From positions 1 through 64,000 of the forward strand of contig NZ_JASBQE010000003.1 in assembly GCF_029960785.1 (NCBI RefSeq): a stretch of 64,000 nucleotides of DNA, in the 5' to 3' direction. Under the pieces are notes generated by a model. It was not told the origin of the DNA, ran no database searches, and saw nothing but the letters and a program-made list of their open reading frames with translations. The stretch comes from Polyangium sp. 15x6. GTDB taxonomy: Bacteria > Myxococcota_A > Polyangia > Polyangiales > Polyangiaceae. The position numbers and the translations under genes were made by a program. Below, in pieces: positions 40,762-43,583 of the stretch; the stretch's first letter is position 1; the number at the start of each line of letters is the position of its first letter.

Positions 40762-40871
40762 CGTTGGACGAACCTTTTACGTACGGGCAGACATCGGACG
40801 GGCTCGGACGGACCTACATGGGCCTTCCTGGCTGGAGAAGTTGAAGAACCTGCTCGACACTCCTCTCGTAA

Positions 40872-40894
40872 CGTTGTACAAACCATGTACAACG
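40872..40894. promoter_or_regulatory. 23-bp operator-like inverted repeat
   Basis: CGTTGTAC (40872-40879) and GTACAACG (40887-40894) form a perfect 8-bp inverted repeat with a seven-base spacer, 17 bases before the start of the DUF4388 gene. Size and symmetry fit the binding site of a dimeric helix-turn-helix regulator. The regulator is not evident nearby. Confidence 0.55.
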
Positions 40895-40911: not shown

Positions 40912-41733
40912 ATGTTCGACAGCGCCGCCCTTGGGGATGGGGGAGGAGCGTGGTTCGGTGGGGCCACGACGGACGCCGGTTGGGGCGATCGGGCGGGCGT
41001 CTCCTCGGATCGCGCGCGGGGTCGGCTCATCCTCCGAGGTCAACTCGACGAGGTAGGGCTCGACGATCTGCTCGGCACCCTCGGCTCCCGAGGCCGGACG
41101 TGCGTCGTTTCGGTCCGATCCCCGAAGCGGCGAGGCGAGATCGTCCTCGAGCGAGGGCGCGTGCTCCGCGCCCGCGCCGACGGGGTGCCAGCGGACGCCG
41201 ACGTCGAGGTCACGCTCGCCGCCCTTCGAGGCGTTTCCCACGCGGTGTTCGACGTGCTCGCGCTCGACGAGCGAGGTTCGTCGTCGTGGCCGCCGCCACG
41301 CCCGCCGTCCTCCGAGACGCCGACCGCGTCCCTGCGCCCGGCGATGCTGGAAGGCAATGCGACGGAGGTGGCGCTGGCCGCGGCCGTGATGAATGCGTGC
41401 TCGGTCTACACGCGCAAATGGCTGGGGCCGAAGCTCGCGTCGTCGATCATGCTGACGGCCTGGGCGCGCACGGCGGCGGAGCATCCGGCGATGGATGCCT
41501 TCCGGATCTCGGCGGACGGCATGGTGACGGTGGCAGGCGTGGAGCGGGCGCGGTCCGCGATTCCGAAGGCGGTGGCCACGTGGGTGTTTGCCGTCTTCGA
41601 GGCCGCCTCGATGTTCCATGCGGCGCGTTTCCAGCGATATCACGTCCCCGAGATGCTCGGGGGCCTGATGCGACTGCTCGACAAGGGGGGATGGGGTGAG
41701 GCGTTCCGAATTCGAGATGGAGGTGTTCGTTGA
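40912..41733 (+). CDS. DUF4388 (PATAN-like) signalling protein
   Basis: The 273-residue product starts at ATG 40912 behind GGAAGGAAGGGAG. Residues about 35-120 carry the DUF4388 pattern: RGRLILRGQLDEVGLDDLLG, TLGSRGRTCVVSVRSPKRRG, EIVLERGRVLRARADG. The rest is a helical domain of unknown type, with RPAMLEGNATEVALAAAVMN and MDAFRISADGMVTVAGVERA. DUF4388 proteins are signalling components common in deltaproteobacteria. The stop overlaps the TTG start of the PYP-like gene (TTGA), so the two are coupled and probably interact. An inverted-repeat operator lies just upstream. Confidence 0.8.
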   Translation: MFDSAALGDGGGAWFGGATTDAGWGDRAGVSSDRARGRLILRGQLDEVGLDDLLGTLGSRGRTCVVSVRSPKRRGEIVLERGRVLRARADGVPADADVEVTLAALRGVSHAVFDVLALDERGSSSWPPPRPPSSETPTASLRPAMLEGNATEVALAAAVMNACSVYTRKWLGPKLASSIMLTAWARTAAEHPAMDAFRISADGMVTVAGVERARSAIPKAVATWVFAVFEAASMFHAARFQRYHVPEMLGGLMRLLDKGGWGEAFRIRDGGVR

Positions 41734-42707
41734 GCCGGGGGTTCTTCAAGGCCGTGCAGGCCGCGATGGTATCGGAGGACGGCACGCTCGACGCCGTTGA
41801 GCGCATCGCCTCCATGTCGAAGGAGGAGGTCGACGAGCTCCCGTACGGGTTCGTGGTGCTCGACGAGGTCGGCACGATTCTTTTGTACAACCGATACGAG
41901 TCCTCCCTTTCGCGCCTGCCTCCCGAGCGGGTCGTCGGGAAAAACTGGTTCAAGGAGGTCGCTCCTTGCACGCGGGTGGAGGCGTTTCACGGGCGCTTCC
42001 GGGCGCTCGTGCAGGACGAGGCGCGCCTCTCGGAGAGCTTCCGGTTTCGATTTCATTTCATGCACGGGACGCAGGACGTGGCCGTGCAGTTCGTGAAGGC
42101 GCCGCCCGTGGTGACGCTGCCGCTCGTGCAAGAAGGCACGGCGGCGCGGATCTTCATGACCGTGGTGCGACGGCCGGTGGTCGAGGTGGGCGCGAATCAG
42201 GCCGGCCACGATTGGCAGAAGAGCCTCGGGACGATCGGCGGGGTTTTGCCGGTGCTGCTCGACGCGCTGCCCGCGCTGCTCGAACGGCTCGGGCCGCGCG
42301 GCGCGATCGAGCTCGGCGAGCACGTGGGGCGCGCCATGGCGCTGGTGATCGAGTCGGAGGCCGACGCGCACACGCGCGAGGGCGGGCGCGCGCCGGTGCT
42401 CGCCCCGGGCGCGCTCGACGGCGTGCTCGCGCGGGCAGGGCTCGGTCGCGTGGCGATCGAGGGGGCGGCGTGGTCCGAGCAGAAGCGCGTCCATTGCGAG
42501 CTGCGTCCGCCGTTCGAGGTGGAGGCGGCGGAGACGGCGCTCTTTTACGGAGCCTTGCTCTCGGCCGCGATGGGCTCGGGCCTCGGCGAGCCGTGCCAGG
42601 CGCGCTTCGCGGAGGACCGGAAGCCGCACGAGGTGCCGTGGCTCGTCGAGGTTTGTCCGGCCACGTCAGGGGAGCGTCGGAGCGAGCTTACGTCGAGCTC
42701 TTTTTGA
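41730..42707 (+). CDS. PYP-like PAS sensor with V4R-like C-terminus
   Basis: The 325-residue product starts at TTG 41730 behind GGAGGTG. Residues 37-120 are a photoactive yellow protein-type PAS domain: LPYGFVVLDEVGTILLYNRY, then VVGKNWFKEVAPCTRVEAFH. It aligns without gaps to Halorhodospira PYP (offset 11): Tyr53, Glu57 and Cys80 match Tyr42, Glu46 and Cys69; Thr50 is Ser61 and Arg52 is Leu63. So the coumaroyl attachment Cys and its hydrogen-bond partners are kept. The C-terminal part (RAGLGRVAIEGAAWSEQKRV, GSGLGEPCQARFAED) resembles a V4R ligand-binding domain. It is coupled to the upstream DUF4388 gene. Coumarate-making enzymes are not in the window, so light sensing is unproven. Confidence 0.82.
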   Translation: MSRGFFKAVQAAMVSEDGTLDAVERIASMSKEEVDELPYGFVVLDEVGTILLYNRYESSLSRLPPERVVGKNWFKEVAPCTRVEAFHGRFRALVQDEARLSESFRFRFHFMHGTQDVAVQFVKAPPVVTLPLVQEGTAARIFMTVVRRPVVEVGANQAGHDWQKSLGTIGGVLPVLLDALPALLERLGPRGAIELGEHVGRAMALVIESEADAHTREGGRAPVLAPGALDGVLARAGLGRVAIEGAAWSEQKRVHCELRPPFEVEAAETALFYGALLSAAMGSGLGEPCQARFAEDRKPHEVPWLVEVCPATSGERRSELTSSSF

Positions 42708-42788: not shown

Positions 42789-43583
42789 ATGAATCATCTT
42801 CGCAGCCTCGGCGTTCTCCTCGGTCTTGGCCTCACGCTCGCCGCCGTGGCGTGCGGCGAGGACCAGGGCGGCAGCGGCGGATCGAGCAGCTCCAGCAGCA
42901 CCGGTAGCACCGGCGGCACCGGCGGTACGGGCGGTACGGGCGGCGCTGGCGGCACCGGCGGCGTGGGCGGCGCGGGTGGCACCGGCGGCGCCGGCGGGAG
43001 CGAAGCGAAGAGCCTCAGCTTCTTCGTCTCCAGCACCGGGAGCACGACGGCCAACCTGGGCGGGCTCGACGGGGCGGACAAGAGGTGCCAGGACCTGGCC
43101 ACCCCGGTCGGCGCCGGGGCGAAGACCTGGCGCGCCTACCTCAGCGTCGAGAAGGGTCCGAACGGAGAGCCCGTGCACGCCAAGGACAGGATCGGCACCG
43201 GCCCCTGGTACAACGCGAAGGGTGAGATGGTGGCGGCGAACCTGACCGAGCTGCACGCGAGGTACGGCGATCACAAGGTGTTCCTCGACGAAAAGGGCGA
43301 GATGGTGCCGGGTCAGTGGGAAGGCTCCCCCACGCCGAACCAGCACGATGTCCTCACCGGCACGGCGCGCGACGGCACCCTCGTCCCCGGGCAAACCTGC
43401 GCGGACTGGACGTCCGAAGACGCCACCATGACCGCCCAGGTGGGCCATAGCGATGGGCTCGGTCCCAATATGAGCGACGCCGAGATGTACCGGCCGTGGA
43501 ATTCGGTGCACGTCAACGGCAACTGCGGCGACACCGCCCCGAAGGGCGGCAACGGGCGCGTTTACTGCTTCGCGGCGGATTGA
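42789..43583 (+). CDS. Lipoprotein with DUF1554 lectin-like domain
   Basis: The 264-residue product has lipobox LAAVAC, an Asp/Ser patch, then a stretch of GGTGG/GGAGG repeats (about residues 40-72). The folded domain matches the DUF1554/C-type-lectin-like group: LSFFVSSTGSTTANLGGLDG, ADKRCQDLATPVGAGAKTWR, AYLS, and later CADWTSEDATMTAQVGHSDG and a final GNGRVYCFAAD. Conserved Cys residues support a disulphide-bonded fold on the cell surface. The coding Gly/Thr repeats also form a DNA-level repeat. The gene ends inside a convergent small gene. Confidence 0.86.
   Translation: MNHLRSLGVLLGLGLTLAAVACGEDQGGSGGSSSSSSTGSTGGTGGTGGTGGAGGTGGVGGAGGTGGAGGSEAKSLSFFVSSTGSTTANLGGLDGADKRCQDLATPVGAGAKTWRAYLSVEKGPNGEPVHAKDRIGTGPWYNAKGEMVAANLTELHARYGDHKVFLDEKGEMVPGQWEGSPTPNQHDVLTGTARDGTLVPGQTCADWTSEDATMTAQVGHSDGLGPNMSDAEMYRPWNSVHVNGNCGDTAPKGGNGRVYCFAAD

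Follow-up and report, generated by a model that had tools for sequence, protein, structure and literature searches.

The stretch analysed here (the window) is 64,000 nucleotides long and comprises positions 1 to 64,000 of contig NZ_JASBQE010000003.1 of Polyangium sp. 15x6. Its forward strand carries two overlapping genes (Table 1): one for a DUF4388 protein and, directly behind it, one for a fusion of a PAS domain of the photoactive yellow protein (PYP) type with a degenerate V4R-like domain. Two tandem CarH-type repeats precede the pair. We tentatively read this operon as a two-gene light-response module, made up of a PYP-V4R sensor and a DUF4388 protein under predicted CarH control, and would put its chances at not quite even. 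The PYP-V4R fusion itself is known; what appears to be new, in that it was not found in the literature searched, is a zinc-less, DUF4388-coupled, CarH-boxed subtype.

Table 1. Features of the PYP-V4R operon, in window coordinates
Feature	Position	Strand	Basis or remark
Two tandem 11-bp CarH-type direct repeats N4-T-N2-ACA-N, ACGTTGTACAA + ACCATGTACAA	40871..40892	+	
19-bp palindrome TTGTACAAACCATGTACAA	40874..40892	+	ends 19 bp before ATG 40912
DUF4388 partner gene	40912..41733	+	likely start ATG 40912
DUF4388 domain (PF14332)	41035..41355	+	36.5 bits, cut-off 25
C-terminal helical region of partner	41347..41709	+	conserved in seven aligned partners, four genera
PYP-V4R fusion gene	41730..42707	+	TTG start, 325 residues, 4-base overlap with partner gene
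PYP-type PAS domain, residues 18-148	41781..42173	+	PDB search, TIGR02373, structure comparison
Tyr53 (= PYP Tyr42)	41886..41888	+	alignment
Glu57 (= PYP Glu46)	41898..41900	+	alignment
Cys80 (= PYP Cys69, chromophore attachment residue)	41967..41969	+	alignment
Degenerate V4R-like domain, residues 160-321, zinc ligands not conserved	42207..42692	+	fold, alignments
Weak terminator-like hairpin at gene end	42684..42700	+	2 such hairpins in 2.5 kb against a chance expectation of 1.1

A PYP-type PAS domain

Judged by its sequence, the PAS domain of the window protein is a PYP relative with the full Tyr/Glu/Cys chromophore triad. Of 34 Protein Data Bank (PDB) sequences listed by phmmer at E ≤ 1, 33 are PYP, Ppr-PYP or PYP-derived tags; the best match is 1mzu (E 2.9e-16), and H. 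halophila PYP follows at E 1.1e-14. These alignments run gap-free from their start through Cys80, which bears out the gap-free PYP alignment of the first-pass annotation and its pairing of Tyr53, Glu57 and Cys80 with Tyr42, Glu46 and Cys69. The domain is recognised by PF08448/PF00989 in Pfam and by TIGR02373, the PYP equivalog model (E 9.8e-24, 83.8 bits), and PYPs also lead the structure comparison (1mzu_C, Z 16.1, root-mean-square deviation (rmsd) 1.5, 106 aligned residues). An ordinary PAS domain with a chance likeness to PYP is ruled out by the PDB matches, the TIGR02373 score and the structure comparison taken together. By the family definition of PMC9664959 the domain belongs with the PYPs, as it is nearer to PYP than to other PAS families, carries Cys69 and has both Tyr42 and Glu46, which are described there as usual and not strictly required.

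Seven of the nine published pocket residues are identical in the window protein (Ile31 is replaced by Val and Phe62 by Trp), as are 12 of fifteen further conserved PYP residues (Phe28 to Tyr, Gly86 to Ala, Trp119 to Phe). Beyond these two sets lie Thr50 to Ser (Ser61 of the window protein), Arg52 to Leu (Leu63), Tyr94 to Phe, Tyr98 to Phe and Met100 to His (His112). The differences from H. halophila PYP thus include Val31, Ser50, Leu52, Trp62, Phe94, Phe98, His100 and Phe119, and the earlier statement, which limited the differences near the pocket to Thr50 and Arg52, was too narrow. Ser50 and Leu52 are not unusual, since the family consensus is given as Ala50 and Leu52 and two characterised PYPs with Ser50, which absorb blue-shifted, are described in PMC12826048. 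The residue at PYP position 100 influences photocycle recovery. With Ser50 and with His in place of Met100, we would expect blue-shifted absorption and an altered, probably slow, recovery.

Relatives were surveyed in 183 genomes of the order Polyangiales, and more widely in a phylum sample of 377 Myxococcota genomes. The host genome (G000; assembly 13.4 Mb, 98% complete) has one PYP-like PAS match. Across the order such domains occur, at E ≤ 1e-6, in 73 places in 46 of the 183 genomes and 24 of 83 genera, so that PYP-type receptors are not as rare here as had been claimed. TIGR02373 matches at E ≤ 1e-12 are found in 44 of the 377 Myxococcota genomes, with one genome (G180) over the cut-off; the PYP family is thought to have originated in Myxococcota (PMC9664959). 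We aligned 72 domains including that of the window, taken from 72 of the 73 places (L001, the window copy, and L010, a duplicate of L032, were dropped). In these rows, which were gathered by their likeness to the window protein and may miss homologs without Cys69, Glu46 and Cys69 are each present in 72 of 72, and position 42 is Tyr in 68 and Phe in 4. Position 100 is far more variable (His 24, Phe 12, Met 12, other or gap 24).

In a maximum-likelihood tree computed from 73 domains on few columns, with 16 of 70 inner branches open, the window's group (type 1, 10 rows) falls on a single branch with support 99/93. Two further groups do the same: type 2, with 12 rows and support 95/95, and the PYP-histidine kinases, also with 12 rows, at 100/99. 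A clade supported at 100/97 unites types 1 and 2 with ten coiled-coil PYPs. The group labels were assigned here from the regions flanking the PAS domain.

Pairing with a DUF4388 protein

The open reading frame of the partner opens at ATG 40885; ATG 40912 is its likely start, because the Met-Phe found there is invariant in seven aligned partners. The PYP frame begins at TTG 41730 and overlaps the partner stop (41733) by 4 bases (TTGA), and a start codon with the same 4-base overlap is possible in 10 of 10 type-1 loci. The partner lies directly upstream in all 10 and, in a search with a model of the partner protein, beside no other PYP-like locus searched, the flank covered at loci L011-L030 being 1.5 kb. 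At E ≤ 1e-15 the genomes with the partner are precisely the 10 with a type-1 PYP, and neither was found in the other 173 of the 183, among them Polyangium G151. In the phylum sample 6 genomes, each of them one of the 10, have full-length partner matches (369-530 bits), and the next best match scores 41 bits.

We take DUF4388 to be a PatA-N/PATAN-like domain. Its Pfam model exceeds the cut-off at the operon in at least seven of the 10 genomes (G000, G148, G149, G150, G152, G164 and G166) and stays below it in G109 (L123). Since G000 has 16 DUF4388 matches, and assuming one gene per 1.15 kb, adjacency by chance would be expected at about 0.001-0.002 per genome. Given the 10 of 10 loci, the exact co-occurrence, the phylum sample and the 4-base overlaps, a chance neighbour is very unlikely, and the coupling to a DUF4388 partner put forward in the first-pass annotation holds. 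Partners in other genera are 63-105 residues longer at the N-terminus, and the added stretch looks receiver-like by eye. A fold comparison of the partner gave no informative match (best Z 5.5) and is not taken as evidence.

The V4R-like domain and a kinase-coupled sister group

Evidence that the C-terminal domain is V4R-like comes from its predicted fold and from a sister family. The Pfam V4R model (PF02830) is over its cut-off in none of four type-1 proteins scanned (the window protein, L126, L006 and L032), and a sequence search of the domain against the PDB gave no meaningful match. An AlphaFold model built on nine sequences (predicted local distance difference test score 70.6), for which Foldseek candidates were re-compared, resembles the phenol-sensing domain of PoxR (5frx; Z 12.8, rmsd 3.1, 149 aligned) and the V4R protein MJ1460 (2osd; Z 11.3, rmsd 3.7, 125 aligned). 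The phenol sensors PoxR, DmpR and MopR are the closest folds (Z 12.8-11.4); unlike them, the window domain has no conserved zinc ligands, no AAA+ output and no sequence match. A V4R fold is supported by this model, and the earlier V4R-like assignment survives as to fold, though not as a Pfam match.

The sister family is type 2, also from Polyangiales, which has the same architecture and shares the supported clade with type 1. An order-wide search with the type-1 C-terminal domain returned 9 strong and 3 weak matches, and the 3 weak ones sit directly behind type-2 PYP domains; hhalign of the two C-terminal domains gives a probability of 88.5 (P 2.8e-6) over the first half of the domain alone. 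Type 2 differs from type 1 in having Ala50/Phe100, intact V4R zinc ligands and an upstream Ser/Thr kinase in place of DUF4388. Six of seven type-2 proteins scanned exceed the PF02830 cut-off, the exception (L020) being apparently frameshifted behind the PAS domain, and C152/E175/C178/C186 are invariant in 11 of 11 aligned domains (L020 left out). These residues are presumably spaced like the zinc ligands of DmpR and MopR. No invariant Cys is present in the type-1 V4R-like domain in 9 aligned rows. In 11 of 12 type-2 loci (L031, L034-L039, L041, L015, L020 and L028; none was found at L027, which has little flank) the end of the kinase gene and the PYP domain are 8-66 bp apart, with the kinase gene upstream and both on one strand, and all six kinases scanned match PF00069. 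Each of the 11 kinases closes with a short tail around [STP]-[LIFM]-D that might serve as a docking peptide.

In G152 (L005) the V4R part has been lost, with no significant tblastn match in the locus, and the PYP-DUF4388 pair and the operator are kept. Under the light-module reading, the V4R-like domain would be a dimerisation or relay module. The same loss, like the unconserved zinc ligands, would also suit a protein whose PYP and V4R domains no longer sense and serve to stabilise or localise the DUF4388 protein. We regard such a scaffold as improbable, because the chromophore triad is strictly conserved while identity over the whole protein drops to 33-44% in other genera. G152 has a second PYP-like protein, with a single domain (L045).

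A putative CarH-type operator

Upstream of the operon both 11-bp units at 40871-40892 are perfect repeats of N4-T-N2-ACA. The CarH motif is described as 11-bp repeats with T and ACA, of which CarH can recognise one or two with weaker flanking ones; in Sorangiineae such repeats are reported at crtI-carH and crtE-crtD, and in S. cellulosum, where carotenoids are under B12/light control, the crtE-crtD pair has three tandem repeats (PMC9304148). LitR-type sites share the TGTACA core (PMC9758184). The window box is the only match to TTGTAC-N6-TGTACAA at ≤1 mismatch in the 13.4-Mb genome. A box stands at the same place in five of five Polyangium loci with the operon, reading TTGTACGAACCATGTACAA in the four other Polyangium, and is exact in G052, a member of another family (TTGTACATAGTATGTACAA). 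Sorangium G166 has a 2-mismatch site; that of G163, with 3 mismatches, lies 181 bp upstream. In 595 kb around PYP-like genes, 12 of 12 sites at ≤2 mismatches fall at type-1 operons and the reversed control gives 0; the 12 include duplicate locus copies and represent 7 distinct operons of the 10.

Some other sites stand near genes with a link to light. In five of five Polyangium with the operon a carH-like gene has, at a distance of 0.6-0.7 kb, a related site just before a redoxin-like gene (in G000 the redoxin/YtfJ-like gene lies at L180:6638-7183, on G000:C202), and a crtI-like gene is divergent from carH on its other side in G000. The CarH-like protein of G000 has a MerR domain, both B12 domains and the Wx9EH motif. 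In G109 the interval that separates the domain starts of divergent polyprenyl-synthetase and crtI/crtD-like genes holds two overlapping sites at 11-bp pitch, resembling the published S. cellulosum crtE-crtD arrangement (PMC9304148), and the sole other site in G052 lies 3 bp before a photolyase open reading frame. From the CarH-type repeats and the related boxes near carH, carotenoid and photolyase genes, we infer that the operon is probably part of a light regulon. Of 19 sites inspected 6 are those of the PYP operons; among the remaining five, the sites in L187, L190 and L191 showed no light-related neighbour (L187 and L191 by eye). TTGTACA-type sites in L189 (G000) and L186 (G149) lie near a NAD-binding_7-type, siroheme-synthase-like gene, and L189 also has a divergent gene for a sigma factor that is much extended at its N-terminus.

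The redoxin-like neighbour can be taken in another direction. Cys80 might react with light-formed oxidants or electrophiles, making the domain a thiol or redox sensor that works without a chromophore, and a redox use of the PYP domain has been proposed for some methylobacterial Ppr proteins (PMC9664959). The published case, as described there, loses Cys69 and gains cysteines, whereas here Cys69 is retained together with Glu46 and Tyr42, and the alignment of nine sequences contains no second invariant Cys. We consider a redox sensor a long shot.

Proposed circuit

Under the light-module reading, CarH would repress the operon in the dark in the presence of B12, and light would release CarH so that both proteins are made. 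Cys80 would carry a thioester-linked cinnamate-type chromophore, p-coumarate or a relative, obtained from the environment or from an enzyme not yet known, and with such a chromophore the PAS domain would be, we propose, a blue-light switch. The light signal would pass by protein contact to the DUF4388 protein, as it does from PixD to the PATAN protein PixE, and the DUF4388 protein would change a surface-motility or developmental output. A fuller version, a two-tier circuit in which B12-CarH derepression by light of an operon yields a second, PYP-based blue-light receptor with DUF4388 (PatA-family) as its direct output partner, is possible, though we would sooner bet against it than for it.

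If the two-tier circuit is in fact correct, it would provide the first such PYP-effector pair to be genetically fixed, and it would imply that V4R zinc was kept in the kinase-coupled relatives and lost when the partner changed. The signalling partners of PYPs are a gap stated in both PMC9664959 and PMC12826048. Strict co-occurrence allows a partner to be named here, in the culturable genera Polyangium and Sorangium, and the CarH-type box gives the operon a tie to light that does not depend on the PYP domain. The exchange of partner, kinase or DUF4388, alongside retention or loss of V4R zinc, amounts to a natural experiment on signal relay in PYP-V4R proteins.

Evidence against a light module

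Several results weigh against the light-module reading. For the PAS domain, the TIGR02373 score does not reach the curated cut-off of 143.05; this model is reported to have picked up about 20% of PYP homologs (PMC9664959). For the operator, the 11-bp units flanking the window pair do not fit the repeat, leaving the site outside the three-repeat search rule given in PMC9304148, and its spacer is 5 bases versus 12 in the LitR sites of PMC9758184. Sorangium G164 has no box within 400 bp, and G163 and Byssovorax G109 have 3-mismatch sites only. Genome-wide box counts at ≤2 mismatches do not exceed the reversed control (6 versus 5 in G000), so box number is no evidence and weight was put on exact or position-conserved boxes; the 19 sites inspected, out of 34 at this threshold in 10 genomes, were chosen post hoc. 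Conservation of the redoxin box is weak evidence, because the promoter is alignable across Polyangium. The stretch between carH and crtI, tried as a further CarH site, was rejected: none of the five Polyangium has a T..ACA doublet at 11-bp pitch there. The CarH-like protein of G000 scores 125 against a cut-off of 400 with the NCBI CarH model, and no sigma-70-like promoter was found.

Chromophore supply adds to these points. Each of the 10 type-1 genomes has a single ammonia-lyase (PF00221) match, in every case hutH over its cut-off, and hence no tyrosine ammonia-lyase (TAL). A PYP-type coumarate ligase (pCL; TIGR02372) over cut-off was found in none of the 183 genomes, in a search that scored the best first-look candidates (9 of 79 in G000) and had no positive control among 14 control genomes. 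A PYP with its own coumarate pathway is thus rejected as an explanation. The missing genes do not disprove a coumarate chromophore, however, since G180, which has the sole TIGR02373-positive PYP of the phylum sample, also has no TIGR02372 match over cut-off, and since TAL accompanies 5% of published pyp operons and pCL 32%, with uptake or broad-range enzymes suggested (PMC12826048). We accordingly dropped pCL absence as a disproof. In the five genes scanned around the G180 PYP no ligase or lyase was recognised. The first-pass annotation had named the lack of coumarate-activation genes, next to a Cys80 that binds no chromophore, as what would refute it; of these two, the lack of the genes was found, and for the reasons just given it does not refute a coumarate chromophore. 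As a separate observation, G178-G182 (L109-L113) carry second ammonia-lyases with another selectivity motif, RYHGCG, and G178 and G179 have in addition a weak TIGR02372-like ligase no more than 3 kb away, possibly in aryl-polyene-type pigment clusters.

The want of TAL and of a PYP-type ligase would be natural if light is not the signal. Cys80 could bind some other activated compound, acyl or phenolic, or a free ligand could sit in the pocket, with the operon placed in a light regulon only for handling photo-oxidative or phenolic stress. The V4R-like domain, whose model is closest to phenol sensors, and the pocket changes Phe62 to Trp, Tyr98 to Phe and Met100 to His would accord with such a PYP-fold chemical sensor. 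Against it, Glu46 and Cys69, invariant across 72 divergent domains, fit a photoactive site, a CarH-type box stands before the operon, and most published pyp operons are also without TAL (PMC12826048). A chemical sensor seems to us unlikely, if worth keeping in mind.

Relation to known systems

PYP-V4R fusions are already in print, with 20 proteins reported (PMC12826048, J Bacteriol, December 2025). As described there, these proteins, like that of the window, have an N-terminal PYP, a C-terminal V4R fold and no evident output domain; the window protein appears to differ from them in its zinc-less V4R domain below Pfam detection, its DUF4388 overlap and its CarH-type repeats. A term search of the main text of that paper found neither DUF4388 nor Polyangium nor Sorangium named, and the listings and abstracts searched gave no PYP with DUF4388, a Ser/Thr kinase neighbour or a CarH box. 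H. halophila PYP and R. centenum Ppr-PYP share with the window protein the PAS fold, Tyr42, Glu46, Cys69 and most pocket residues; unlike them it is fused to a V4R-like domain, and TAL and pCL were not found in its host.

The operator is like those of the Sorangiineae CarH regulon in its tandem 11-bp repeats, as at the carH-crtI and crtE-crtD pairs; the CarH targets named in the available part of PMC9304148 are carotenoid genes, with no PYP operon among them. The proposed pairing resembles Synechocystis PixD-PixE, in which a blue-light sensor is likewise paired with a PatA-family protein: PixD binds PixE, and an action on PilB1 has been proposed (PMC7690835, PMC5812497). PixD is a BLUF protein and not a PYP, and no homology is claimed between the sensors; PixE has a receiver domain, whereas the Polyangium partner is without the N-terminal region seen in its orthologues. 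PYP and PATAN are treated separately in PMC5812497, in the portion available. Two M. xanthus PATAN proteins were among the candidates of a study of type IV pili, which then turned to another protein (PMC11580455).

Neighbouring genes and other PYP-like loci

Directly downstream of the PYP gene (window 42789-43583) lies a gene for a Gly/Ser/Thr-rich protein with DUF1554, for which G152 has no match. The coiled-coil PYPs (L011-L014, L016-L019, L021 and L032:6470-7138) have a conserved upstream protein in 5 loci, with no Pfam match at 0.01 in the two of five scanned, and in 2 loci a Roadblock/LC7 gene (MglB-type fold) is close by. On G052:C79 (L032/L127) a type-1 operon has a coiled-coil PYP, a gene with a receiver domain and an Hpt-bearing histidine kinase within a few kb, so that this cluster holds two PYP-like proteins.

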